IMG/VR virus record: IMGVR_UViG_3300021964_000637
Location: 1-21,747 of that record
Direction: 5' to 3' (one strand)
Source of the DNA: a virus
DNA length: 21,747 bases
The translations under genes and the position numbers were made by a program. Below, piece after piece: positions 705 through 14,162 of this stretch (position 1 is the first letter of the stretch; the number at the start of each line of letters is the position of its first letter). The notes below the pieces were generated by a model. The model was not told the origin of the DNA. It saw only the letters and a list, made by a program, of their open reading frames with translations, and searched no databases.

Positions 705-2039
705 TTAGAATAATTTACTCAACGTTTCTTGATCTAGGTTAAATCTGGGTCCAGCAGATTCCTGACCATGGGTCTCTGTAACCTTTCCTTCAAATTCAAT
801 ACGACCATTATTAGTGTCCATTTTAACATTATAGGTCATACCGTCTTGTCCATATCTATTTTTCATAACATGAACTCTTCCTGTACCGAGTACTTTATCT
901 TCTTTCTGTCTTGATAGTGATAGACAAATATCTGCAACCATCATTTTATCATAGGAGCCTGCTGCCTTATCTCCTTCGATAACGTTATCTTTAGCACCCA
1001 TTCTATTTACTTGAGAAGGTGTAAGTATTGGTATTTTTAACTCCTTAGCTAAACCTTTGGTAGCTATAAATACGTCGTCTATTTCGTCTTTACGTTCAGA
1101 AAATTTACCTCGAGCAGGAGCTTTTAAGTAGTCAACATAATCAATTATAACCATATCAGGCTTATGATCCATGTCGATACATTTTTGAATATGTGATTTA
1201 ATAGTATTAACTGATGCGTTCTTAGGGGCGTATTCTTTTACTATAAGTCTACCTTTAAGACTGTCTACATAGGTCTGAACCTCTTTACGGTGTTTATTAA
1301 CTTCATCAATAGAGTACCCTGTAAAATAGCAATCAAACCGTTTTCCCACGTAATCTTCTCCGAGTTCAAGTGTATAATAATTAACTTTATGACCCATTTT
1401 AACAGCATGAGCAGCAATAGCAACCATAGTCCAGCTTTTGCCACCTCCTGGATTACCAAAAACAATAGCAAGGTCCCCAGGTCCAAATCCCCCTTGGATA
1501 CCATCATTGAGGATAGGCCAAGGAGAAGGAATAGTAGGACGGTAGTCAGTTCTATAACGGGTTTCAACATCTTTATTATACTCATGTCCAATATTTTTAT
1601 CCATACCGGCTTTCATAGCCTTTTCAATCATATTTCGAATACCGTCGAAATCATGGTCCTTAAGTAGGTCTGCAGAGCTTAATATAGCGTTTTTCATTTC
1701 TTGATTCTTACAAAAAGTTTGAAACTCTTCTTGTACGTAATCTAAATCGTCCTGAGAAGCTTCGTAAGAGTTTCTTAACTCTTCTTTTAAAGCTACTTGA
1801 AGTACTTCATTCTCTAATTTCTGAAGTTCAACTTTAAGTACGTCCATTGTAATATTAGTATGGTACTTATCGAAGTAGTCTTTAATTTGATTGATAATCC
1901 ACTTATGGGAATCAGCATCAAAGTAATGATCATGTAATACATCTCTTACATTAAGTAAAAATGTCTTGTCTGTGAGTAATGATCCTAAGACCTTTAATTG
2001 GAACCCCTTCCCGTACTGCTGTAAGCTTTTTAATGTCAT
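705..2039 (-). CDS. gp41: Replicative DnaB-type DNA helicase (T4 gp41-like)
   Basis: This is the hexameric 5'-3' replicative helicase that unwinds the phage fork. At 444 residues it is close to the roughly 475 of T4 gp41. Residues 1-150 form a helical N-terminal domain. The RecA-like motor begins near 170 (PSPWPILNDG, as in DnaB proteins) and carries Walker A GNPGGGKS at 195-202, the catalytic-Glu segment TLELGEDYVGKR around 223-234, Walker B MVIIDYVD at 296-303, and PSQVNR at 341-346 with the sensor Gln. It is the last gene of a packed unit that starts at uvsX and follows the nucleotidyltransferase gene by 24 bases. AAAGG lies about 10 bases before the ATG and could be a weak ribosome binding site. 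No primase or helicase loader gene is seen in this window. Confidence 0.93.
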   Translation of the reverse strand: MTLKSLQQYGKGFQLKVLGSLLTDKTFLLNVRDVLHDHYFDADSHKWIINQIKDYFDKYHTNITMDVLKVELQKLENEVLQVALKEELRNSYEASQDDLDYVQEEFQTFCKNQEMKNAILSSADLLKDHDFDGIRNMIEKAMKAGMDKNIGHEYNKDVETRYRTDYRPTIPSPWPILNDGIQGGFGPGDLAIVFGNPGGGKSWTMVAIAAHAVKMGHKVNYYTLELGEDYVGKRFDCYFTGYSIDEVNKHRKEVQTYVDSLKGRLIVKEYAPKNASVNTIKSHIQKCIDMDHKPDMVIIDYVDYLKAPARGKFSERKDEIDDVFIATKGLAKELKIPILTPSQVNRMGAKDNVIEGDKAAGSYDKMMVADICLSLSRQKEDKVLGTGRVHVMKNRYGQDGMTYNVKMDTNNGRIEFEGKVTETHGQESAGPRFNLDQETLSKLF

Positions 2040-2056: not shown

Positions 2057-2064
2057 AATATAAC
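2057..2064 (-). promoter_or_regulatory. GTTATATT motif upstream of gp41
   Basis: The minus strand reads GTTATATT 17 bases before the gp41 ATG, overlapping the last base of the preceding gene's stop codon. The same octamer precedes gp32 and the DNA polymerase at similar distances. It resembles part of the TAnnTTTG -7 element of Bacteroidota promoters (TATATTTA here). Function is inferred. Confidence 0.35.
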
Positions 2065-2486
2065 TATTTTTCGTCTAATAACCAACTAGATGATTGAATT
2101 TTATCTCCTAATCCATCAACTAACTCTATACCTAATTTTTTACATACTTTAGCCTCAGGTATAGTTTTATTGGTTTGGTCGCCTCCGTTTGCAAAACAGA
2201 GATTATGTTGCTTTCCATTAAGCTTATGAATATACTTAAGGGATTCGATTTGTGTTTGATCCTTATCTACAGAGACCATAGTATAATCAACATATTTTAT
2301 ACTGTCAACAATAGTAGCTCTTTCTTCTTGATCCATAAATTCTTTCGAACCTTTTAATTCTCTTTGAAGATCTGAGTTAACTATAATAACAAGAATATCT
2401 CCGTATTCTTTTGCTTTTTGAAAGAGCTCTAAATGCCCTTTATGAAGTGGATTAAAATACCCACTAACTATTACTGCTTTTTGCAT
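2064..2486 (-). CDS. HxGH-type nucleotidyltransferase (cytidylyl-/adenylyltransferase fold)
   Basis: This is a 140-residue single-domain enzyme of the nucleotidyltransferase superfamily that includes TagD, NadR/NadM and pantetheine-phosphate adenylyltransferase. The start GYFNPLHKGHLELFQKAK (9-26) has the intact catalytic HxGH motif (H15-K-G-H18) after the first beta strand. A Ser-rich segment, IQSSSWLL, near the C-terminus sits where the family has its ISSTxxR/ISTTxxK nucleotide-binding motif, but the basic residue is not obvious. The family transfers a CMP or AMP from CTP or ATP to a small phosphorylated substrate; the substrate cannot be read from sequence. The start overlaps the preceding nucleotidyltransferase gene by 23 bases, pointing to coupled translation. 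The two proteins are only distantly similar, so they are divergent paralogues or independent acquisitions. Confidence 0.72.
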   Translation of the reverse strand: MQKAVIVSGYFNPLHKGHLELFQKAKEYGDILVIIVNSDLQRELKGSKEFMDQEERATIVDSIKYVDYTMVSVDKDQTQIESLKYIHKLNGKQHNLCFANGGDQTNKTIPEAKVCKKLGIELVDGLGDKIQSSSWLLDEK

Positions 2487-2880
2487 AACTATCTGAAATT
2501 AATTTTTTAAACTTTGTTGTTGACCATCCATGATCTCTACTGAGGTAATGAATTGGTATTTTTAAATTATCACCAGTAAACGGCTTATTAATATAATCAT
2601 CACCTAAAAATCTTATATCAAATTCTCCTAATTTTAACAAATCGTACAGCTGAGCCTCATATGTATATGAAAGTACGTCATCGATGTATTTTATAGAAAG
2701 TAACATTTCTTTTCTTTCATGTACCGATAGTATAGGTTTAAGTTTATGAGGTCTTTCTATAGAAGGATCAGAATGTAGCAATACAATCAGTACTGTACAA
2801 TTCTTCTTCATCTCCTTAAACATCTCAATATAACCTGGATGCAAGACGTCGAAATTACCTGCTATAACTCCTTTTATCAT
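2464..2880 (-). CDS. Second nucleotidyltransferase (TagD-like), with HPGY in place of HxGH
   Basis: This 138-residue protein has the cytidylyltransferase-like start AGNFDVLHPGYIEMF (7-21). Its catalytic motif reads H14-P-G-Y17, so the second His of HxGH is Tyr. The C-terminal motif is well kept: GWSTTKFKKL (118-127) matches the ISTTxxK element of glycerol-3-phosphate-type cytidylyltransferases, and FLGDDY (91-96) fits the central strand. The protein is TagD-sized. The ATG overlaps the stop of the exonuclease gene (ATGA) and the gene runs 23 bases into the other nucleotidyltransferase, so the pair is probably co-translated. The changed His could mean altered chemistry, a regulatory or partner role, or lost activity. 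The substrate is unknown. Confidence 0.68.
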   Translation of the reverse strand: MIKGVIAGNFDVLHPGYIEMFKEMKKNCTVLIVLLHSDPSIERPHKLKPILSVHERKEMLLSIKYIDDVLSYTYEAQLYDLLKLGEFDIRFLGDDYINKPFTGDNLKIPIHYLSRDHGWSTTKFKKLISDSYAKSSNS

Positions 2881-3902
2881 TTTACTGTTGTTAACCCTCT
2901 AAAATTTTCCAACCAACTCTCTGTATTCTTAGTTATCCCTTCAATTTTATCTTGATCTAAGTGATGCAAAAATGCTCCTGTTTGAAGTGCCGGTGTAGGC
3001 TGTTTTAAATTATCCTCTACAATTTCTATTTCATTCTCACTTAATGCTGTTTTATGTAGATCCATCAATTGGTAATTAGTCAATACCTTCTCCCAATTAT
3101 GTATAATTTTAGCAAACACTTTCTTAGGTTTATCTCCATCAAGTTGAGTTTCACAATGATCCCAAACGTCTTGTAATGACGCATTAGTGTCATGAGTAAA
3201 GCTTTTCCATTCAGATAATATAGTCTTAATCCCTAGACCTTTGACACCTGGTAAATTATCTGAATTATCACCAAGTAATGCTTTTACTATATTGTAGTTT
3301 TGAGGTAGTACTCCAATTTCATCTTTTACATTCTCAAACGTAAAAGTTTTTTTCTTAACCGGAGCATATACCTCTATATTTTGATCAATCAATTGAAAGA
3401 AATCTTTATCTGATGATACTATGGTAACTTTTTTATCAGCTTTAGAAGCTCGGTTAGCAATATAAGCTATTATATCATCAGCCTCTAATTTTTCCATACC
3501 GATTTGATGTACTGGTAAGCATTCAAGATAGTCCCTAGTTCTAAATAATTGACCTATCAATGCTTCTTGTTCTTCTTCTCTTGTATCATACAGACCCCAG
3601 TGAGTTATTCGAGCTGTTGCACGTTGTGCTTTATAGTTAGGATTAATATTCTGCCTATTACTAGACCCTCCTTTACCGTCCCATATAATAATCACCCTTG
3701 TTGGATCAAAGATTCTAGTTACATATCCAAGAGAGCGAAGAAACCCTACCAGGCCTCCGATATGTGTGCCTGATGGGTTCATCGCTTTGAGCAGTGAAAA
3801 GCTACGAATTAACATATTCATAGCATCAATAATCAAAATATGATCATTTAAAGCTCTCGGGGGGGTCTCCTTTAAATTATTTAATATGGAATTATATTTC
3901 AT
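2877..3902 (-). CDS. 5'-3' exonuclease / FEN-family nuclease
   Basis: This is a 341-residue metal-dependent 5' nuclease of the family formed by the Pol I N-terminal domain, T5 D15 exonuclease and T4 RNase H. It probably removes RNA primers and 5' flaps. Acidic active-site residues are all visible: D26 (LIIDAMNM), D75 (IIIWDGKGG), E140/D142/D143 (EADDIIAYI), D165/D167 (SSDKDFFQL) and D212/D215 (GDNSDNLPG). A helix-hairpin-helix segment, PGVKGLGIKTI, follows at 218-228. A basic NPNYKAQR stretch at 87-94 fits the DNA-threading arch. No polymerase domain is attached; the phage's family A polymerase is a separate gene at 8220-9536. The ATG overlaps the radical SAM gene by 11 bases and the stop overlaps the next start by ATGA. 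The family is secure; equivalence to T4 rnh is inferred. Confidence 0.93.
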   Translation of the reverse strand: MKYNSILNNLKETPPRALNDHILIIDAMNMLIRSFSLLKAMNPSGTHIGGLVGFLRSLGYVTRIFDPTRVIIIWDGKGGSSNRQNINPNYKAQRATARITHWGLYDTREEEQEALIGQLFRTRDYLECLPVHQIGMEKLEADDIIAYIANRASKADKKVTIVSSDKDFFQLIDQNIEVYAPVKKKTFTFENVKDEIGVLPQNYNIVKALLGDNSDNLPGVKGLGIKTILSEWKSFTHDTNASLQDVWDHCETQLDGDKPKKVFAKIIHNWEKVLTNYQLMDLHKTALSENEIEIVEDNLKQPTPALQTGAFLHHLDQDKIEGITKNTESWLENFRGLTTVK

Positions 3903-5091
3903 TTCTACTTTTTACTTTTTCTTCTCTATGTAATTCAAATATGGTATCAAGTGAATTCTTTTTACCACAGTACATGGAACAGGCTACTTGCTTCCCTCTT
4001 TCCACACTACTATCCCACTTATCATTATATATCTTTTCTATTAATCCTTCAGTTAATATTTTGTCTATAGACGAAGTTCTTAAATTAAAATTTTCCCTAC
4101 CGTATTTATCATGTGCCTCAAACATTTGCCTAAAGGAGTAGGTAACGTACCCTCCTTTATCGTAAGCAGACCTAACTGCGCTAAATCCTAATCCAACAAA
4201 ACAGCAAGGGTGCACAGTACCGTCTACATCGACATAAATGTCATTGTGACCACATCTAGGTACTATTTTGGTCTTATTGGCTTCTTTAACATCCCTCCAA
4301 TCACTATCTAATGTACACCCAAATTCAGGATTAATTTTTTCCAACCAAAGTTCTTCTTCCTTTAATTTAACTTTAGGATTGTCCGGTAGGTAAGTGGGTT
4401 TGAATTTATCTAGATCTGTAGGTTCAAGCCAGTATTTTACTTTTCCCTCTACATCTAATACACTTATGGGTGTTATATTTTCTCCATCATCCAAATTTAC
4501 CGGTGCTTTAAACTCTATAGCTGCAAATCCAAGTTCTTTAGAAAGTTTTTCTGCCTCTTCTATCTGATGTTGATTATGTTTGAATACTAAATAATCCCAA
4601 ATTACAAATATGTTTTTATACTTGGTGACTTCTTTAACATTTGAGATTAATTTATCCCACTTAACATTCCTTCTATATATATGATTAGTATCCTCTAAAC
4701 CGTCTATACTAAATGTAAAAGTAACGTTCTTCGCTTGCATATTATCTAACTCATAACCAACCTCATCCCAGAATTTAGATGTCTTCATCCCACCGTTAGT
4801 ATGCATTTGAAATTTATTAAACTTAAATTGGCTTATATACCTTAATATTTTAGGTAGGTCGGGATTTGTACCAGGGTCTCCGTGATTTCCACAGAAGTTT
4901 AGGTATCTAACTTTTTCCATTACTTCTTCAGGAAACCACTTAATAAACTCTTCGTAGGTAATATAACCTATAAACTGACCAGGAGCAACTTTAGGAGAAG
5001 TACTATTAAAACGAGGGCAGCAAGGACATGCTGCATTACAGAGACTAGATATCTCTAAATGCATATAGTTTATGTAATCGTTTTGTAACAT
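3892..5091 (-). CDS. Radical SAM protein with SPASM-like C-terminal cysteine cluster
   Basis: This radical SAM enzyme is about 399 residues from the ATG at 5091. That start gives a TAATG overlap with the preceding stop, matching other junctions in this genome. A TTG 18 bases earlier (5109) is possible but less likely. The [4Fe-4S] motif CNAACPCC gives C18/C22/C25 (CxxxCxxC), followed by a GDP-containing SAM-binding strand (NFCGNHGDPG). A C-terminal Cys-rich region (CGHND..., HPCCFVG, CSMYCGKK) looks like a SPASM or twitch domain holding auxiliary clusters, as in peptide-modifying and dehydrogenase-type radical SAM enzymes. The substrate is unknown and no precursor peptide is visible nearby. 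It is sandwiched between a 2OG oxygenase-like gene and the 5' nuclease within the uvsX-gp41 unit. The family is secure; the function is open. Confidence 0.9.
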   Translation of the reverse strand: MLQNDYINYMHLEISSLCNAACPCCPRFNSTSPKVAPGQFIGYITYEEFIKWFPEEVMEKVRYLNFCGNHGDPGTNPDLPKILRYISQFKFNKFQMHTNGGMKTSKFWDEVGYELDNMQAKNVTFTFSIDGLEDTNHIYRRNVKWDKLISNVKEVTKYKNIFVIWDYLVFKHNQHQIEEAEKLSKELGFAAIEFKAPVNLDDGENITPISVLDVEGKVKYWLEPTDLDKFKPTYLPDNPKVKLKEEELWLEKINPEFGCTLDSDWRDVKEANKTKIVPRCGHNDIYVDVDGTVHPCCFVGLGFSAVRSAYDKGGYVTYSFRQMFEAHDKYGRENFNLRTSSIDKILTEGLIEKIYNDKWDSSVERGKQVACSMYCGKKNSLDTIFELHREEKVKSRNEI

Positions 5092-5738
5092 TAAATTGTT
5101 AAATTCCAATAACCTATTTCTCTATATCCATCACTAAAGTTCCAACCTTCATGATATGTCCATGGTGTGTTTATATGGAGTACTCCTGTACCTGCTTCTG
5201 TAGGTGCCTGGTAGGTATGTTCACCAAATTCAGGGCGTAGATCTTTCGTCAAAGAATAATCTTTATAGTATTTCGTACCTGAGTTTTTAGGGTTATCTTT
5301 TAGGTTAAAGATTAGTGTTGCTATGATTCCAAAATTATCAATATGTACAGACTGTCTATACCTTGGTGCATCCCTCCATACATCAAACAGCTCTCCTGTG
5401 AACTCTTCTACTTGTCCAATATGCTGATCTATTTTCTGTCTTAGTATCCATTCAGGCCAAACGTTAGTAATATCGTAATCTACTACTGCTCTGGTACGAA
5501 GTAGTTCTCTAACACCTGCTAAAAGGTTTTTTCCAGTTTGATAAAATTCATCAGTAAGTTTAGAATGACATTCTTTACCTTTATAGGCTAAGATATTTTC
5601 AACATCAGCTGTTGCGTTATAAAATTGTGCTGCTGGTGTCCATCCTTCTTCAGGTAATTTAGCAAATAAGGGTATATCGGTTATTTCCCAAAGAGGAATG
5701 TTAGTTGCTTCTCTTTCGAATACAGGTGTAAATTTCAT
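5091..5738 (-). CDS. Putative 2-oxoglutarate/Fe(II)-dependent oxygenase
   Basis: This 215-residue protein has a C-terminal half that fits the double-stranded beta-helix of Fe(II)/2OG oxygenases. H132-I-D134 (SVHIDNFG) forms the HxD pair after an R-Y-R-Q strand, H196 (TYHEG) could be the distal His, and R206 (GYREIGYW), ten residues on, could be the 2OG-binding Arg. An SGTKYY strand and a GTGVLHIN strand between them match the family layout. The N-terminal ~120 residues are mostly helical and unassigned. Such enzymes hydroxylate or demethylate proteins, nucleic acids or small molecules; the substrate here is unknown. Both ends show TAATG junctions, with uvsX upstream and the radical SAM gene downstream. 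The motif assignment is by eye, and another cupin-type fold remains possible. Confidence 0.72.
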   Translation of the reverse strand: MKFTPVFEREATNIPLWEITDIPLFAKLPEEGWTPAAQFYNATADVENILAYKGKECHSKLTDEFYQTGKNLLAGVRELLRTRAVVDYDITNVWPEWILRQKIDQHIGQVEEFTGELFDVWRDAPRYRQSVHIDNFGIIATLIFNLKDNPKNSGTKYYKDYSLTKDLRPEFGEHTYQAPTEAGTGVLHINTPWTYHEGWNFSDGYREIGYWNLTI

Positions 5739-6808
5739 TAGTCTAATAAGTTAGGTGAAATAGTATCTTCTTCAAGATCACCTTCCTCAATTAAATCAAA
5801 GTCTAAACTTCCTACTAATTTTAACCAGTGATCCTTATGTTCGTCTTTATATTTATCAATAGCTCTTTTATCATCTGGTAAGAATCCATGAGAGGTCATA
5901 ACTACTCTACCTCTAGACTGTACTCCTCCAATATGGTTCTTTTCTATCTGTACATTAGTACGTTTAGCAAACTCTACCTGTAAACCGTCTTTGATTGCTT
6001 TAATCTTAGATGTACCAGGATTAGTAATATTACCAAAAGTAACTACTAATGTTGCATCGTACCACATAGACATACCTCCTTTATTTTGTAGTTTAGGTTG
6101 ACCCATTGGTGATTCAGGTTTCATTGTCCACACCTTATTAATAGCAACAAGCGTATTAGTATAAGGAGAGTTTTCTTTTCTAGATAACAAAATCTTTTGA
6201 TTTAAGTTATTACCAAACTGAGTTGACATTGCTCCTGCGTTCCATTCGTTATTATTTTTATTAGAACGAACTGAAAGATCACAAGGTACAGAACCGATAC
6301 TATCCCAGAAGAAACACATATCAAAAGGTAAATTACCTTTAGCTTGTTCATCTAAAAGATCAGCAATATAAACTGCTACCTCTTCGATAGTATTTAATGT
6401 ACCTCTGTCGGCATATAGGAAGTGACCTTCGTAATCAGTTACATTTCCATCGGCATCTGTAACTTCTTCGAACTGTAAGCCCATTTCCTTAGCGTGTTCC
6501 CAGGACCACTTCATCTCAGTAATAATAAATACTGGTAATACTCCTAATTTTTGTGCATTAACTGCAGCTTCTAGTAGTGCAGTAGTTTTTCCTGTATCAC
6601 TATGACCTCTAAGTAAAGTAATATGCCCGGTAGGAATACCAGGAAGAGATGTAATATCTTGAAAAGCTTTTGATAATGGAATCCAGCCTTGTTCTTTAAA
6701 CTTAACTGATGCATTTGAATAACCTTTCTTTTGTTTAAAATTGGATAAGTTAAACGACTTTCTTACTGATGCAGTCGCTTTTTCTTGAGTTTCTTTCTTT
6801 TTTGCCAT
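5738..6808 (-). CDS. uvsX: UvsX/RecA-type recombinase
   Basis: This is a strand-exchange ATPase of the RecA/UvsX family. It forms filaments on ssDNA for recombination-dependent replication and repair, working with gp32. At 356 residues it is slightly shorter than T4 UvsX (about 390). Walker A GHSDTGKT is at 68-75, Walker B CFFWDSIG at 165-172, and a Gln/Asn-rich loop with AMSTQFGNNLNQK corresponds to the L1-L2 DNA-binding region. The C-terminus is acidic (EEGDLEEDTISPNLLD), as in RecA and UvsX regulatory tails. The N-terminus is Lys-rich. The ATG has no Shine-Dalgarno sequence but an AT-rich leader, and a strong terminator separates the gene from gp32 upstream. It appears to lead a unit of seven genes ending with gp41. 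Confidence 0.93.
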   Translation of the reverse strand: MAKKKETQEKATASVRKSFNLSNFKQKKGYSNASVKFKEQGWIPLSKAFQDITSLPGIPTGHITLLRGHSDTGKTTALLEAAVNAQKLGVLPVFIITEMKWSWEHAKEMGLQFEEVTDADGNVTDYEGHFLYADRGTLNTIEEVAVYIADLLDEQAKGNLPFDMCFFWDSIGSVPCDLSVRSNKNNNEWNAGAMSTQFGNNLNQKILLSRKENSPYTNTLVAINKVWTMKPESPMGQPKLQNKGGMSMWYDATLVVTFGNITNPGTSKIKAIKDGLQVEFAKRTNVQIEKNHIGGVQSRGRVVMTSHGFLPDDKRAIDKYKDEHKDHWLKLVGSLDFDLIEEGDLEEDTISPNLLD

Positions 6809-6897: not shown

Positions 6898-7689
6898 CTA
6901 TTCACTAAACAGGTCGTCGAATTTGCTGACTGTGTTCTGTTTACCGGCTGTAGCATTCTCTAATGTGAAGTCGCTACTTGAAGATTCACTATCACTGCCG
7001 CCTGGTAAAGCAGCAGGAGCAGACTCTTCATTAGAACCAGGGTTTAGGTAATTCTGAAGTTGCTTTTTAATGAATTCGTAGTCATACTCTGTATGTACCT
7101 CTATCGGGTTAGGTTGAGTCTTTAACCATGTATCTACCTGATCGTTATTATCCGATAAAGCAGTTTGTTTAGGTTTAATCCTAACCGAAGTAGTTGGGTA
7201 AGGATTACCTTGTTGTTGTTCAACAACTAAATCCCAACCATTGATTACATCTGTGTAATCCCCTACGTCTTCGTCCTCTGCCAATGCAAGAAGAGCTTTA
7301 TAAATTGTGATACCGAAGCCCCATAGTCTTACGCCTTTATCTTCTTCTCCTCTAACAATAACAGGAGCAAAGATTCTAGTCTTAGGGTTAATTTTACCTG
7401 ATAGTGACCAATTGTCTTTGTCGTTAGTCTTTCTTAGTTCTTTTACGAACTCTTCAATAGGGTCTTGCTTACCAAAATTAGATAATGCAACCATCGGATA
7501 CTTACCGATACCGTAGTGAAATTTTAATTCCTTAAATGGGAATGTTGGATCGTACGCAGAAGGTACGATTCTAATCGTCTGTTTTCCTAATTCAGGTTTC
7601 CAGAAGATAGTTGAATAGTCAGTCTTTTCTCTTTCCTGACCGGTGTTGTTTAACTCGCCGAGTTTCGCTTTAATAGCATTTAAATCCAT
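6898..7689 (-). CDS. gp32: Single-stranded DNA-binding protein (T4 gp32-like), without zinc cysteines
   Basis: This is the ssDNA-binding protein coating replication and recombination intermediates. At 263 residues it is shorter than T4 gp32 (about 300). The N-terminus is a basic helical region. The OB-fold core follows, with Trp/Phe/Tyr-rich strands (IFWKPELGKQTIRIVPS, LKFHYGIGKYPM, VRLWGFGITIYKALL). The tail after ~225 is Ser/Glu/Asp-rich and ends KFDDLFSE, like the acidic protein-interaction tail of gp32. There is no cysteine in the protein, so the His/Cys zinc site of T4 gp32 is absent. The gene has a GTTATATT motif 14 bases before its ATG and a strong terminator after its stop. It lies between the unknown 153-residue protein and uvsX. 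Confidence 0.9.
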   Translation of the reverse strand: MDLNAIKAKLGELNNTGQEREKTDYSTIFWKPELGKQTIRIVPSAYDPTFPFKELKFHYGIGKYPMVALSNFGKQDPIEEFVKELRKTNDKDNWSLSGKINPKTRIFAPVIVRGEEDKGVRLWGFGITIYKALLALAEDEDVGDYTDVINGWDLVVEQQQGNPYPTTSVRIKPKQTALSDNNDQVDTWLKTQPNPIEVHTEYDYEFIKKQLQNYLNPGSNEESAPAALPGGSDSESSSSDFTLENATAGKQNTVSKFDDLFSE

Positions 7690-7740: not shown

Positions 7741-8202
7741 TTAATTATCCAACTCTACTATCTTATAAAGTTTAGTATTAATCCTTTTTAATTCAGGTCC
7801 TTTAGTAAGAAGTATACAGTTCCTGAAGTCACTCCAATTTATACGGTAAGAAGTATCAAGCACGCCACCGTTTAATTCTTTAATTAAAGTATTTAGTGCA
7901 TTGATTGTATACAGAGTGTTAGATTCTTTTTTTCTATGAACAAGAATGGTATTATCCAAAAATGTGCTTACGTTTCCAAAGTCCACATTGTAAGTACAGA
8001 TGTACTCATCTTGAGATTTTGAATATAGCACAAAAATTTTGTTGTAAATTATTTTGTACTTCTCTTGTATTGTAGCTAGTACTTCGTCTAAGTTTTCTTC
8101 TACAGAGAAAGTACAGAAAAGTTTATTACTCATATCTTCAGTTAAATGGATGGGATCGATATCGTAATCGAACCCTCTATCTATAACGTTTTCATCTTTC
8201 AT
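7741..8202 (-). CDS. Conserved-looking hypothetical protein between polymerase and gp32
   Basis: I do not recognise this 153-residue protein. It is soluble, with no signal peptide or membrane segment. It has an acidic N-terminus, alternating strand-like segments (KIIYNKIFVLY, YICTYNVDF), and a helix-rich C-terminal part (YTINALNTLIKELNGG, then DWSDF-type and ELKRINTKLYKI segments) that looks like a compact DNA- or protein-binding domain. The ATG at 8202 follows the polymerase stop by 17 bases and overlaps a TATTTATA motif. In T4, small regulators of late transcription and helicase loading (33, 59) map beside gene 32, so a replication or transcription accessory role is a reasonable guess from position only. 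The coding call is firm because of length, spacing and strand; the function is unknown. Confidence 0.8.
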   Translation of the reverse strand: MKDENVIDRGFDYDIDPIHLTEDMSNKLFCTFSVEENLDEVLATIQEKYKIIYNKIFVLYSKSQDEYICTYNVDFGNVSTFLDNTILVHRKKESNTLYTINALNTLIKELNGGVLDTSYRINWSDFRNCILLTKGPELKRINTKLYKIVELDN

Positions 8203-8219: not shown

Positions 8220-9536
8220 CTATAAACAGAGATCTTTAGAATATTTAAATTTTATTGGGTATTTACCCCCTGATTCTAATATCTCCTGTAGTTCTTCTAA
8301 GGTTTCTTTACCGTCTTCTTTATGAAAATCAAAAAGTAATGCATCATATGTATATAAAACTAATTTAGTTTTCTTATCTCTAAGATACCCTAGTACATCC
8401 TTTAATATAAGAATATTTCTCGAAGTCTCTAACGATTGCATAATATAATTCATTAACTTCTGAGGATTCATGTCTTTGAGCGAGCTTGTGAAAGGTTTTT
8501 CACTAATTGGAGCCAAGACTTTTCCGTCAGCTTCGTATCGTTTCCATAACTCTTTGATATAATTATCAATTCTTGTAAAGATTTCAAGGAAAGCGTACTT
8601 GTCTGGTATCTTACCATAAATTGCGTGAAAGTTAATCTGTTTTGCTTGGTCATATTCATCTTCCGTGATTTCTTCTTTGTTAAAATATTGTTTTGCTAGC
8701 TGTTTATGAGCTGATTCGCTTGTAAGGTCATACCCAATCTGCTCACAAAGTAGACGAAGGTGATAACCATCAAAATCCAACTCAACAAAGTAATCCCCGG
8801 TCGGTCTAAAACATTTCCTATGTTCTGGGCTTTTAGGGATAGCAGCGAAATTAACGCTATTAAAAGCATTAGTTGGTCTAGAGGTGACATTGTATAAATT
8901 ATAAGAGGTTAAAACTGTATTATCTACTATATTATACAAAGGATCACGTGGTTTAAACATTTCCACAAAATTTTCATAGTAGATTCCAAGACCAGACTGT
9001 TCAATCAAGTAAAATACATTGGTTGCAGTCTTATTATAAAAATCGAAACCAGACGGAATGTCATATTCGATCACATCTTTAACCTTATCGTATACTTTTT
9101 CACATGATTCAAACAATTTACTTATAGGAACTAACTTATTTACTTCCTTAAATCTATTAAATTTATTATAGAAAAAATTTAAATCGTGAGAATACTCTAA
9201 CTTATCGTATTTAGTCATTGAGTATAGTAACGAAAGATCGATGGCTGACTGTATATTAAAGTAATACAGTAGGTTCTTTTTATCTAACGTATATACATTA
9301 GTAGCTTTAGAAAGAATAGCAGAGACACGGTCTCTAGACACATTCATACCTTCATCGTGATCGATAGGAATTATGTACCCTTGCTTGGAGCCTATTAATC
9401 TAATGTAGACTGCCACACAAGAATTCAGCTTAGGGTGATAGGAGTAATTAGATGGGATTACATCTACATAAATTCCAAGTCTAGCAAGCTTTTCGAGATT
9501 GTCTAACTTATCGTCTTGTTCTACTATATAAAACAC
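8220..9536 (-). CDS. Short, divergent family A DNA polymerase with degenerate N-terminal exonuclease-like region
   Basis: This is the phage DNA polymerase, 438 residues, far shorter than E. coli Pol I (928). Palm and fingers motifs are recognisable: TSRPTNAF...AAIPKSPEHRKCF (218-243), like the RLSS...NIP...R motif; motif A ELDFDGYHLRLL (252-263, D254 catalytic); motif B QAKQINFHAIYG (297-308, K299, F303, Y307); MQSLETS (366-372); and motif C LYTYDALLF (394-402, D398 catalytic). Departures are H259 where Pol I has the steric-gate Glu, Tyr before K299 where Arg is usual, and YDA for HDE in motif C. Residues 1-110 resemble the 3'-5' exonuclease fold but without recognisable DxE/Asp metal motifs. 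The start is GTG: an in-frame TAA lies just upstream and the next ATG is residue 64. No T4-type family B polymerase is seen here. Confidence 0.88.
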   Translation of the reverse strand: MFYIVEQDDKLDNLEKLARLGIYVDVIPSNYSYHPKLNSCVAVYIRLIGSKQGYIIPIDHDEGMNVSRDRVSAILSKATNVYTLDKKNLLYYFNIQSAIDLSLLYSMTKYDKLEYSHDLNFFYNKFNRFKEVNKLVPISKLFESCEKVYDKVKDVIEYDIPSGFDFYNKTATNVFYLIEQSGLGIYYENFVEMFKPRDPLYNIVDNTVLTSYNLYNVTSRPTNAFNSVNFAAIPKSPEHRKCFRPTGDYFVELDFDGYHLRLLCEQIGYDLTSESAHKQLAKQYFNKEEITEDEYDQAKQINFHAIYGKIPDKYAFLEIFTRIDNYIKELWKRYEADGKVLAPISEKPFTSSLKDMNPQKLMNYIMQSLETSRNILILKDVLGYLRDKKTKLVLYTYDALLFDFHKEDGKETLEELQEILESGGKYPIKFKYSKDLCL

Positions 9537-10118: not shown

Positions 10119-12289
10119 TATATATTTCTCATTTTAGCTCGAAGATTAGTCTTCCAACCTTCTCTTCCAATTTCATGATCCACACCAACAACATAAAAAG
10201 CAAAGTCTTTATATTTTCTAGGAACAATATCTGTATTAATAGTAAAGGTACTAGCAATTTTAAATCCTGAAATACCTTTCATACCTATAGACAGTTCGAT
10301 AGGTACTGGTAGTCCGTTAGGTTTTTTATTCTTAGCATTATCTAACTGTATTGCTCTTTTTAGTTCAGCTGATGCTTCGTTATATAGTTCTGACCAATAA
10401 ACGGGATTAATAACTTCTTTTTCATTTAAGTTTTTCCATGCTTTTTCGAATCTTTCTTTAAAAGGTTCTTTTTTAGCATCATCAGTAGATTCTGTCTTAT
10501 CTCCACCTTTATCGTCTTGCCCTTTAGATAATGCATGTCTATCCACACAGCCAGCATTAAACTTCAAGATATTAGATAAATTATCGTTGTAGTCGGCAGT
10601 ATTTCCTTGGGCAGCAATAGAAACCATACTAGCCATTTCAGATGTAATTTTACTATCTACTTTTATATCGTGTACTGTGCTTGAAAGACCAGAGACTTGT
10701 ATCTCTTTTGGTCTACTTGTAGTAGTAGGAAAGGATCTATCATATACTACATATGTTTGTTTTTCATCATCGTAGAATAAATCCAAATTATTTATTCCTC
10801 CTAAAGAAAAATTAATGCCTGCCAATACAGATTTAATAAATTCAAATATACCTTCTCCTGGTTCTACAGGGTTTTCTACAAAAGTATCCATCTTATCTTT
10901 TAAATAATAAGTCGATATCATGATACTTGTACACAAATTTTCTTTTCCAGCAAGAGCTTTTTGAGCTTTGCCTATAATATCATTTTTAGGTTTAGTTAAG
11001 CTAAAATTAGCAAAAGGATAAGAACTGGAAGCTTTTTTAGGAATAAATACATTCAATGGATCACATGAGTAATGACCAGGAAAGGATACGTATTTTTCTT
11101 GAGAATCTGTTTCAAAACCACAAATAACATTCCCGTGGTGATCTTTCATTAACTCGAAAGAGTTAACAATGTCCAATAATGCTCCTAATGGTATGTAGTT
11201 GATAAAAACAGATGAATTATAAAATAATCTTGTAAACGCATAATTTCCTTCTCCTACTGAGGCTCTAAATCCTACTGTAGGCCAATCTTGTCTAAATTTA
11301 TTAGCAATAGATGGTGCTTTCGCCTCTCTTAGCAAACTAAGTAAGAAGCCATCATCTTTTTTAATTTTTTCTAGTCGTTCACTAATAAAGTGAACTACAC
11401 TCTTAGCTTCTTGTTGACCTTCTTCTTGATCATCATTTTTTTGATCTTCTGCAGATGCGTGAGTTGTAACGTTACTTGCTTTTAGTCCTTCTAGTATGAC
11501 TCCTTTTGAAATTATTTTTACTGAGCAATCATAAGTACCATCGTTACCTAAGGTCCAGTTAAAGTTAGTAATGTACCCAAACATTCCATCGTAGTTCCCA
11601 TCATATTGATTTCTTAGTGTATCAATAGTAGCAACGATTCCTGGTGATGTCCCGTTAAACCATGTAGTATCTGGTACAACCGGGTCCCCGCTAGGTGTTT
11701 TTACATTACCGCTGTTATCTACATAAACTGAATGTCCCCATTCTAGTAATGCTCCGTAACCCACTCTAAAGTATAGTCTTTCGATATCGTCTAAATCCTC
11801 TTTAGAAAAAACTTTAAATTTAACTGATGCTTCTTTTAATGTACCGAAAGTATTTTTAGCCTTTACTGTTGCGCTAATAATACCAGGCATAGGTTTAAAG
11901 CCTGTAGATTTAGAAACATGGTAGGCTCTTGAACCTGCAGAGGTTTTACTAGCATAAGATATGCCACTCCTCATTCCACCGGGATCTAGTACATCAGGAT
12001 TGTTTTGATTTTGTGTAGATTGAGTTAATACGCCTCCTGTCAGTACTAAACTTCTAGCTAATTCATTACTACCCGGTACCGATGATTTTAATGTAGATTG
12101 CTTTAACAGTGATTCTGCTTCTGAGTTGCTGATTGTATTAACAGAAGATCTTAATCTTATCCAAGCATTTGATGAATTAAGATAATTTAATGCAGCCTTA
12201 GATCTAGATGTAGAAGCATGAAGTGCTTCACGTTTAGAAATCTGAGTGTGAACTTTCTCCGAAATTGATGATCCAATACCTTCTGCCAT
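10118..12289 (-). CDS. Large baseplate hub-like protein
   Basis: This 723-residue protein is probably the central hub under the tail tube. After a Ser/Asn-rich N-terminus, residues ~125-270 hold a conserved-looking domain with KPMPGIISATVKAKN, ERLYFRVGYGALLEWGHSVYVDN and GMFGYITNFNWTLGNDGTYDCSVKIISKG. These are reminiscent of the tube-like beta domains of gp27/gpD-type hub proteins. A charged acidic linker (DDQEEGQQEAK) follows. The C-terminus (ELSIGMKGISGFKIASTFTINTDIVP..., then VVGVDHEIGREGWKTNLRAKM) resembles the end of contractile-tail hub proteins, where the last barrel contacts the spike. No lysozyme domain was seen, unlike T4 gp5. It is flanked by TAATG overlaps with the LysM gene upstream and the 175-residue gene downstream. 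Placement after tape measure, tube-cap-like and LysM genes supports the hub call; exact orthology is not certain. Confidence 0.62.
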   Translation of the reverse strand: MAEGIGSSISEKVHTQISKREALHASTSRSKAALNYLNSSNAWIRLRSSVNTISNSEAESLLKQSTLKSSVPGSNELARSLVLTGGVLTQSTQNQNNPDVLDPGGMRSGISYASKTSAGSRAYHVSKSTGFKPMPGIISATVKAKNTFGTLKEASVKFKVFSKEDLDDIERLYFRVGYGALLEWGHSVYVDNSGNVKTPSGDPVVPDTTWFNGTSPGIVATIDTLRNQYDGNYDGMFGYITNFNWTLGNDGTYDCSVKIISKGVILEGLKASNVTTHASAEDQKNDDQEEGQQEAKSVVHFISERLEKIKKDDGFLLSLLREAKAPSIANKFRQDWPTVGFRASVGEGNYAFTRLFYNSSVFINYIPLGALLDIVNSFELMKDHHGNVICGFETDSQEKYVSFPGHYSCDPLNVFIPKKASSSYPFANFSLTKPKNDIIGKAQKALAGKENLCTSIMISTYYLKDKMDTFVENPVEPGEGIFEFIKSVLAGINFSLGGINNLDLFYDDEKQTYVVYDRSFPTTTSRPKEIQVSGLSSTVHDIKVDSKITSEMASMVSIAAQGNTADYNDNLSNILKFNAGCVDRHALSKGQDDKGGDKTESTDDAKKEPFKERFEKAWKNLNEKEVINPVYWSELYNEASAELKRAIQLDNAKNKKPNGLPVPIELSIGMKGISGFKIASTFTINTDIVPRKYKDFAFYVVGVDHEIGREGWKTNLRAKMRNI

Positions 12290-12594
12290 TATAACGTTTC
12301 ATTTAAGCTTTCAAATAATGCTTGTGCTTTTCGGCCATCAGCCGGTATTCTTAATTGCACGCCGGGTTGAACAATCATTCCATCTCTTTTAGAAGTATTC
12401 GCCATAGCAATAACCCACCATAGAGTTTGGTCTCCATAGAACTGCTGTGCTAAAGTATCATACCTATCAGAACCTGTTGTTATAATATAGGTATCGTCCG
12501 CTGTAGCAGGTATCTCTGGGTATATAGCATTCTTTCTATATCTTCTACCGCTTGCAGTATGTAATGATTCTATATTTTTATATCTATCTGCCAT
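12289..12594 (-). CDS. LysM-domain baseplate protein (gp53 / tail protein X-like)
   Basis: This 101-residue protein is mostly one LysM-like domain at about 36-85: YIITTGSDRYDTLAQQFYGD, then LWWVIAMANTSKRDGMIVQPG and VQLRIPA. It has the typical D-T-L-A...Y-G-D, W-W-I-A-x-A-N and P-G-x-x-L-R-I-P positions. In contractile tails, small LysM proteins (T4 gp53, P2 gpX, Afp7-type) bind at the tube-baseplate joint rather than acting on peptidoglycan. There is no signal peptide. Both ends are TAATG overlaps with the flanking baseplate genes, so it is translated in series with them. The domain is clear; which of the LysM tail proteins it matches is inferred. Confidence 0.8.
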   Translation of the reverse strand: MADRYKNIESLHTASGRRYRKNAIYPEIPATADDTYIITTGSDRYDTLAQQFYGDQTLWWVIAMANTSKRDGMIVQPGVQLRIPADGRKAQALFESLNETL

Positions 12595-14162
12595 TATCCT
12601 ATAAATGTACTATTTGCTGTAGGAACGAAATCATGAATTGGAGTAAACGCTACACTTACGTCTAATATGTGAGGTAACATTTTATCTCCTTCACCTTCGT
12701 TATCTATATCCCATGGGTAACCTACATCCCATTTGACACCAACAGATGAAATAAATCCTGATACGTTCTTCATATAATCACCTATTGTAATTTTTGTTAA
12801 CGTACCTCTCATAAAAGATCCTGCTCCATAAGTAGGTGCTGTTGAACCAACTAACTTATTTAGCTTTTCATATAATGGATCTATATCTTTTTTAGAAAAA
12901 GCAGCTATCTTAAAATCAAATGAGATATCTCTTTTAAATCCTTCATAGTTATATAACTCTTCTCCTCTACCAACATACTTAGTACCTCCCCAGTTTCCTG
13001 AGTAGTTATCATTTAATCCTCCTAAGAATGCTCTAAAATATAAGAACTTTCCAGTAGAATCGCCAGGAGTAAATACATTAAATTCAAAAGGAATAATATC
13101 TTGTTTGTCTGAACCTAATATACTTGCTGTTTGAACTGCTAAAGACTGAACTGTATCTGGTTTATCAGCAGCAGGAACTACTGAAGATCTTTTTTCTCTA
13201 TCCTTTCTAGATTCATCTTTTGACCTATTACCTATAACAGTAATTTGATCTGAGTAGAATACTTCAGTACCGTCTATATTAATGTCTTTAATGTACTGTT
13301 GTTGATTATCTTCATACCCAACACTAGGTCTTTGTCTATAAGAACGTGTAGGCTGGTTAGCTATAGGTTTTACTGTGATGGTAGGTTGTGGTTTTGGATC
13401 AACTACTACAGCACTTTCTTGTGGTGGGTTCCATCCTTCACCTCCTGTGTTATCAACAAAAGCTTTATTACCAGCTTTAACTATTTTTCTTATATCACCA
13501 CCTTCAGTATCTATATAGTCGTTCTTCTGCTTTGGTATAAATGTTCCAAAAGCTCTATCCCATGTCTGCCCACTATTATACTTATTATTAGCAGTTTTTC
13601 CTAATCCTGTGATTTGAAAGTTATCTACAACAATAAAACTACCTCCATTTTCTGGGGCATCTGGTGCTATATTTGGTATAATTGAGCCATCTGGAGCAGA
13701 TAAATGAGCTTGTTTCATTCCTTGCTTACCTAAATAAGAAGTATCTTTCAGTCCTCTTATAAGGTGTGTACCTGTACCGTTTGCAGGAATTTGTGCAAGA
13801 ATAGAAGCAGTTGCTAAGACAGTATCAATAGCTGTCTTTTTAGCTCTTTCTCCTAATGCTTGAAGCTTCTGTTTGCCGCTATAAAGAGGTTTACCGTCAG
13901 CATCTTTAGCCATAAACTTGGCTATGTCTTGCTTTATGTTGGTTTGAGCTAATAGAGCTTGGTTACCTAAAAACTTAAGTCCTGGTTTTCTAGCTAGTAT
14001 CTTAACATGTCTAGCTAAATCATCTATACGATGATTAATTTGCATAGAAATACCGCCTGTCTTCGGTGGATCGTTAATATCCTTAGATACCAGCAGGTTT
14101 TTTGTCCCAGTATCGCTATGCTTTAAGGACTTAAGGTTAGTTTTTAGCTCTAATAACGCCAT
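12594..14162 (-). CDS. Baseplate / tail-tube-cap-like structural protein
   Basis: This is a 522-residue two-part protein. Residues 1-350 are low in recognisable structure: an N-terminal helical Lys-rich part (40-125), Gly/Asn-rich loops and a Pro-rich stretch (VVVDPKPQPTITVKPI, 252-267), then a charged linker (SKDESRKDREKR). Residues ~357-522 form a compact domain: IPFEFNVFTPGD, FLYFRAFLGGLNDNYSGNW, YVGRGEELYNYEGFKRDISFDFKI, and VGVKWDVGYPWD followed by LPHILDVSVAFTPIHDFVP. This pattern recalls tube-fold baseplate proteins such as tail-tube initiators and caps (the T4 gp48/gp54 role). The ATG lies 3 bases after the preceding stop, and the stop overlaps the LysM start as TAATG. A structural role is well supported by context; the specific role is inferred. 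Confidence 0.65.
   Translation of the reverse strand: MALLELKTNLKSLKHSDTGTKNLLVSKDINDPPKTGGISMQINHRIDDLARHVKILARKPGLKFLGNQALLAQTNIKQDIAKFMAKDADGKPLYSGKQKLQALGERAKKTAIDTVLATASILAQIPANGTGTHLIRGLKDTSYLGKQGMKQAHLSAPDGSIIPNIAPDAPENGGSFIVVDNFQITGLGKTANNKYNSGQTWDRAFGTFIPKQKNDYIDTEGGDIRKIVKAGNKAFVDNTGGEGWNPPQESAVVVDPKPQPTITVKPIANQPTRSYRQRPSVGYEDNQQQYIKDINIDGTEVFYSDQITVIGNRSKDESRKDREKRSSVVPAADKPDTVQSLAVQTASILGSDKQDIIPFEFNVFTPGDSTGKFLYFRAFLGGLNDNYSGNWGGTKYVGRGEELYNYEGFKRDISFDFKIAAFSKKDIDPLYEKLNKLVGSTAPTYGAGSFMRGTLTKITIGDYMKNVSGFISSVGVKWDVGYPWDIDNEGEGDKMLPHILDVSVAFTPIHDFVPTANSTFIG

Follow-up and report, generated by a model that had tools for sequence, protein, structure and literature searches.

Invariant pocket substitutions and an obligate neighbor gene in divPolA1, a probable accessory DNA polymerase of phages

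The gene at 8220..9536 of the window (the whole stretch of marine phage DNA analyzed here, 21,747 nucleotides) belongs by its sequence to the published divPolA1 family of family A DNA polymerases, and residues of its nucleotide pocket that differ from those of E. coli DNA polymerase I are fixed in about 290 relatives. We favor, with moderate confidence, the view that divPolA1 is an active accessory polymerase of a module containing SSB, UvsX, a 5' exonuclease and a helicase, where it would serve in gap filling or end extension with the product of the adjacent gene, P153, as its partner. Because the family is published and relatives have the gene alongside a regular replication polymerase, the window gene is a known oddity and not a new replicase. 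Its fixed pocket changes and obligate neighbor give it a greater interest than the published account conveys. With an invariant His at the Glu710 position, the Arg754 and Glu883 equivalents lost and the catalytic core kept, the family is a natural test of the purpose of those residues, and P153 is a concrete candidate partner for the enzyme.

The open reading frame begins with a GTG start codon at 9536 and ends at 8220. It had been assigned to the family A polymerases in a preliminary description made from the sequence alone, and both Pfam and the predicted fold agree with that assignment, to which we add the minus strand.

8220..9536, minus strand: divPolA1-type family A DNA polymerase, 438 aa, with a degenerate 3'-5' exonuclease domain, a reduced thumb, and palm and fingers
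9147..9536, minus strand: degenerate exonuclease-like domain, approximately residues 1-130

The Pfam DNA_pol_A model matches residues 205-422 with 35.4 bits, against a cut-off of 34.3 bits. An AlphaFold2 model built from a family alignment of 62 sequences reached a pLDDT of 93 and a pTM of 0.90, and a Foldseek search with it returned family A DNA polymerases only among the 50 matches listed. With VIA-align the whole chain (1-438) fits Pol I large fragments, the match to 6vdd_A having a Z of 27.0 over 405 residues at 3.8 A and that to a Bacillus Pol I fragment a Z of 26-27. The modeled fold is that of a Pol I large fragment in which the exonuclease carboxylates have been lost, the thumb shortened and the palm left intact. 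Global hhalign alignment with Klenow residues 6-599 yielded no counterparts in the window protein of the exonuclease carboxylates D355, E357, D424 and D501, and it left a gap of ~85 residues against the Klenow thumb; the fingers are short as well. The exonuclease-like domain is not merely decaying, because H34, H60, K87 and D100 are invariant within it (295-sequence alignment), a pattern that suggests a new use for an otherwise degenerate domain.

Within the polymerase domain, residue equivalences were taken from an hhalign profile-profile alignment whose comparison set includes E. coli Klenow. The segments concerned are as follows, with the E. coli equivalent after each equals sign.

8754..8777, minus strand: motif A, DFDGYHLR, residues 254-261 (D254=D705, H259=E710)
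8613..8654, minus strand: motif B, YDQAKQINFHAIYG, residues 295-308 (Y295=R754, K299=K758, F303=F762, H304=G763, Y307=Y766)
8424..8450, minus strand: NYIMQSLET, residues 363-371 (N363=N845, Q367=Q849)
8340..8354, minus strand: motif C, YTYDA, residues 395-399 (Y397=H881, D398=D882, A399=E883)

All of the residues named in the preliminary description (DFDGYHLR, Y295, K299, F303, H304, Y307 and TYDA at 396-399) are present, and the alignment confirms the register behind its reading, in which Glu710 is replaced by His, Arg754 by Tyr, Gly763 by His and VHDE by TYDA. No shift of register restores the Glu of the steric gate, because hhalign aligns H259 with E710; we found no alignment that puts Glu back at this position, and a misaligned gate residue is rejected since the profile alignment to Klenow fixes the register. 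The family thus shares with Klenow a common fold, the catalytic Asp pair and the equivalents of K758, F762, Y766, R668 (R220 in the window protein), N845 and Q849, and it departs from Klenow by E710H, R754Y, G763H/Q/K, H881Y and E883A/S.

These states were counted in an alignment of 295 divPolA1 sequences (229 distinct), whose lineages reach down to 24% identity. The E710 position is His in 290/290 relatives and the R754 position Tyr in 292/292; the G763 position is never Gly, and the E883 position is Ala in 265 and Ser in 29, so that motif C reads YD[A/S] in 294/294. The catalytic residues are just as constant, with Asp at the D705 position in 290/290 and at the D882 position in 294/294, the K758, F762 and Y766 equivalents kept in 292/292, and those of R668 and Q849 in essentially all of the ~290 sequences. 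The gene is under purifying selection, with a median dN/dS of 0.08 over 59 pairs and values of 0.09-0.14 between the window and its close relatives. Since the substitutions are invariant in ~290 relatives of several lineages and the gene is under such selection, they are not due to chance. All 12 ordinary PolAs compared besides Klenow retain the Glu710 and Arg754 equivalents, and divPolA1 falls outside the canonical Pol I type defined by Glu at 710 and Arg at 754. One published paper describes E710 as a universal feature of family A, and another identifies it as the steric gate. D256, at the Ser707 position, was considered as a substitute for the lost Glu883 carboxylate, an idea weakened by the presence of Ser there in 7 of 290 relatives.

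The retention of D254, D398, K299, F303 and Y307, noted previously for the window protein, is evident in both the Klenow alignment and the invariance of the family, and divPolA1 is probably catalytically active. Without equivalents of Arg754 and Glu883, the enzyme could be weak or dead.

The divPolA1 family was described by Yutin et al. 2024 (Virol J 21:200, PMC11348598) in 14 phages, with Flavobacterium phage immuto named, and a literature search on the name divPolA1 found only that paper and its preprint. The authors reported that the thumb is truncated, the exonuclease inactivated and the set of downstream replication genes conserved, and called the main catalytic residues conserved; the replaced pocket residues and P153 are not discussed in their text. 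With immuto gp001 the window protein shares 61.7% identity across 100% of its own length (E 3e-177), and the two are alike in full-length homology, dead exonuclease, truncated thumb, intact palm and downstream replication genes. The preliminary description had supposed that a wider group may exist, as indeed it does in the form of ~290 relatives and the published family. A peptide-pattern scan of IMG/VR recovered 204 related stretches, a profile scan at least 545, and a scan with the protein of Microcystis phage Mel-JY01 109. The family is also carried by an uncultured phage genome of 484 kb (LR756508), the protein of which, used alone as a query, gave zero confirmed viral contigs. Where the published list has 14 phages, we thus have contigs in the hundreds together with a Microcystis phage and one of 484 kb, and to the published text we add the strict pocket signature, the obligate neighbor P153 and the spread to cyanophage-like and jumbo phages. 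The Mel-JY01 copy is annotated as hypothetical, and PF00476 fails to detect it; in the same phage (L087:17309-18349 and 11914-13140) the label "DNA polymerase I" (TIGR00593) sits on the gene that aligns with the 5'-3' exonuclease of the window. Relatives in host genomes are limited to two MAG contigs (L366, CALMEO010000055.1, and L367, CAJXAT010000086.1), one of 104 kb, and such contigs are probably phage contigs in bacterial bins.

Two other systems invite comparison. Yutin et al. also described divPolA2 (AUR84708), which resembles divPolA1 in being a short divergent PolA from phages with a regular PolB as well; its N-terminal domain is different, and its motifs A, B and C, read by eye, contain Glu, R..K and FDE, respectively. 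Rhodothermus phage RM378 is like the window phage in being T4-related and in having polymerase and exonuclease on separate genes. The preliminary description gave it a family A polymerase, which is wrong: p092 matches the family B polymerases (PF00136, E 2e-33), p024 is a family B exonuclease domain (DNA_pol_B_exo1) and p012 a 5'-3' exonuclease, and we reject RM378 as a family A relative because its gene is of family B and unrelated. The RM378 enzyme is a split family B polymerase (L120-L121, NC_004735.1), with the genes for the polymerase and exonuclease domains ~57 kb apart.

The large, T4-related phages that encode divPolA1 have, according to Yutin et al., a regular DNA polymerase of family A, B or C as well. 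The same was true of our records, where all 11 relatives of at least 110 kb had one, PolA in four and PolB in seven, a count made on records of this size since shorter contigs without a second polymerase carry no information. In the immuto branch the second enzyme is a full-length PolA of ~780-800 aa with exonuclease and polymerase (immuto gp199; also records G001, G002, G025, G027, G030-G033 and G045), and it is of family B in the Mel-JY01 branch, more distant lineages and the 484-kb phage (records W03, W02, G024, G026, G028, G029, G035, G037, G040, G046, G047 and G049). Judged in its relatives, divPolA1 is therefore not the only DNA polymerase of its genome, and the proposal of an unusual replicase is not upheld. 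A second, canonical polymerase, which the preliminary description held would make this enzyme an accessory one, can be inferred for the window phage; it is seen in the relatives and not in the window because the latter is a 21.7-kb fragment, within which there is a single PF00476 match and no second polymerase was seen. The immuto-branch enzymes (gp199 at L082:37898-40231, L091, L092 and L270-L275) are PolAs of the Leu762 type with HDQ in motif C, whereas divPolA1 keeps Phe762. A published paper associates Leu762 with less efficient and more faithful synthesis, and position 762 with phage lifecycle.

The genes downstream of divPolA1 in the window form a replication module.

7741..8202, minus strand: P153, 153 aa, with no assigned fold; obligate downstream neighbor of divPolA1 by gene order and co-occurrence
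6898..7689, minus strand: gp32-like ssDNA-binding protein
5738..6808, minus strand: UvsX/RecA-like recombinase
2877..3902, minus strand: 5'-3' exonuclease (Pol I N-terminal/T4 RNase H-like)
705..2039, minus strand: DnaB-like replicative helicase

The order divPolA1, P153, SSB, (UvsX), 5'-3' exonuclease and DnaB-like helicase is found in the window and in its relatives. P153 lies directly downstream of divPolA1 in 220/220 loci with room for it, divPolA1 lies upstream in 79/79 P153 loci with enough upstream sequence, and P153 occurs in 6 of 50,697 phage records, 6/6 of which also carry divPolA1, although gene order and co-occurrence, on which the partnership rests, are both inflated by shared ancestry. 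P153 is probably a binding partner of divPolA1, perhaps replacing the missing thumb. Its AlphaFold2 model is poor (pLDDT 60), and no PDB structure matched it at an E below 0.24; its sequence has zero PDB matches, and its PHROG matches are weak and scattered. Two tandem cytidylyltransferase-like genes (PF01467) of 138 and 140 aa separate the 5'-3' exonuclease from the helicase (2064-2880, minus strand) and recur in many immuto-branch relatives. Two further genes occupy the interval between UvsX and the 5'-3' exonuclease (3892-5738, minus strand), one for a radical SAM/SPASM-like protein and one for a protein of 215 aa with zero Pfam or PHROG matches, and both are missing from the commonest gene orders of the relatives.

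The accessory polymerase that we favor would fill gaps, or extend primers, arising from recombination or at Okazaki junctions. It would work together with SSB and the 5' nuclease, and copying of the genome would fall to the second polymerase. P153 would bind divPolA1, perhaps taking the place of the missing thumb, and the rebuilt pocket would probably change how sugars or mismatches are discriminated; sequence does not give the direction of that change. Alternatively, divPolA1 may be a dead or nearly dead enzyme, kept as a subunit of the replication/recombination module that binds DNA or acts as a scaffold. The lost Arg754, Glu883 and His881 equivalents, the dead exonuclease and the reduced thumb would all fit such a role, and an obligate partner gene suits a structural complex. 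A scaffold, however, would have no need of the D705, D882, K758, Y766, F762, R668 and Q849 equivalents that essentially all of the ~290 sequences keep, and we regard this alternative as unlikely.

The altered gate raises another alternative, in which divPolA1 would use rNTPs or be sugar-tolerant, as a maker of primers or RNA. The Glu that is published as the universal family A gate is gone, replaced by His in 290/290, and D[A/S] in motif C resembles the HDS of single-subunit RNA polymerases. Yet HDS is also found in the ordinary phage DNA PolAs of Twort, CRP-3 and Pikmin, divPolA1 keeps Phe762 and Tyr766, the 2'-OH may still be shut out by His, and the best structural matches are to DNA polymerases, so that this alternative seems improbable. 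A role as primase is further weakened by the separate DnaG-like primase encoded in 7/7 tested records of at least 156 kb (in immuto by annotation and Pfam, in the six others by tblastn), although an rNTP-tolerant gap filler would not be weakened by it. Finally, divPolA1 as main replicase with the second polymerase as accessory is very doubtful: the conserved replication cluster holds divPolA1 and not the regular polymerase, the function of which Yutin et al. find the less obvious of the two, and the second PolA of the immuto branch is of the Leu762 type, but divPolA1 is without proofreading and has a truncated thumb, whereas the second enzyme either has an intact exonuclease and a canonical pocket or is of family B.

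Returning to an accessory role, the divPolA1-P153 pair persists whether the replicase beside it is a PolA or a PolB, which suggests that the pair has a function of its own in phage replication. One distinctly tentative possibility is that the two proteins form an obligate two-subunit polymerase, in which a pocket with a His gate and without Arg754 and Glu883 would relax or alter sugar or lesion selectivity, and that it has a separate, recombination-linked job in replication that is kept across unrelated replicases.

The pocket had also been linked to modified nucleotides, a connection that we find unsupported. Immuto has genes annotated for queuosine/7-deazaguanine biosynthesis (preQ0) and for DpdA (L082:18607-37015), which suggest that its DNA may be 7-deazaguanine-modified, with no argument tying them to the polymerase. 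DpdA swaps bases in already finished DNA, so altered polymerase selectivity is not required, and we reject a tie between divPolA1 and base modification on these grounds.

Lastly, clear Shine-Dalgarno sequences are mostly missing upstream of the gene starts in the window, and TTAT occurs within 10 nt upstream of 7/20 of them, against a background of 6% of 10-mers.
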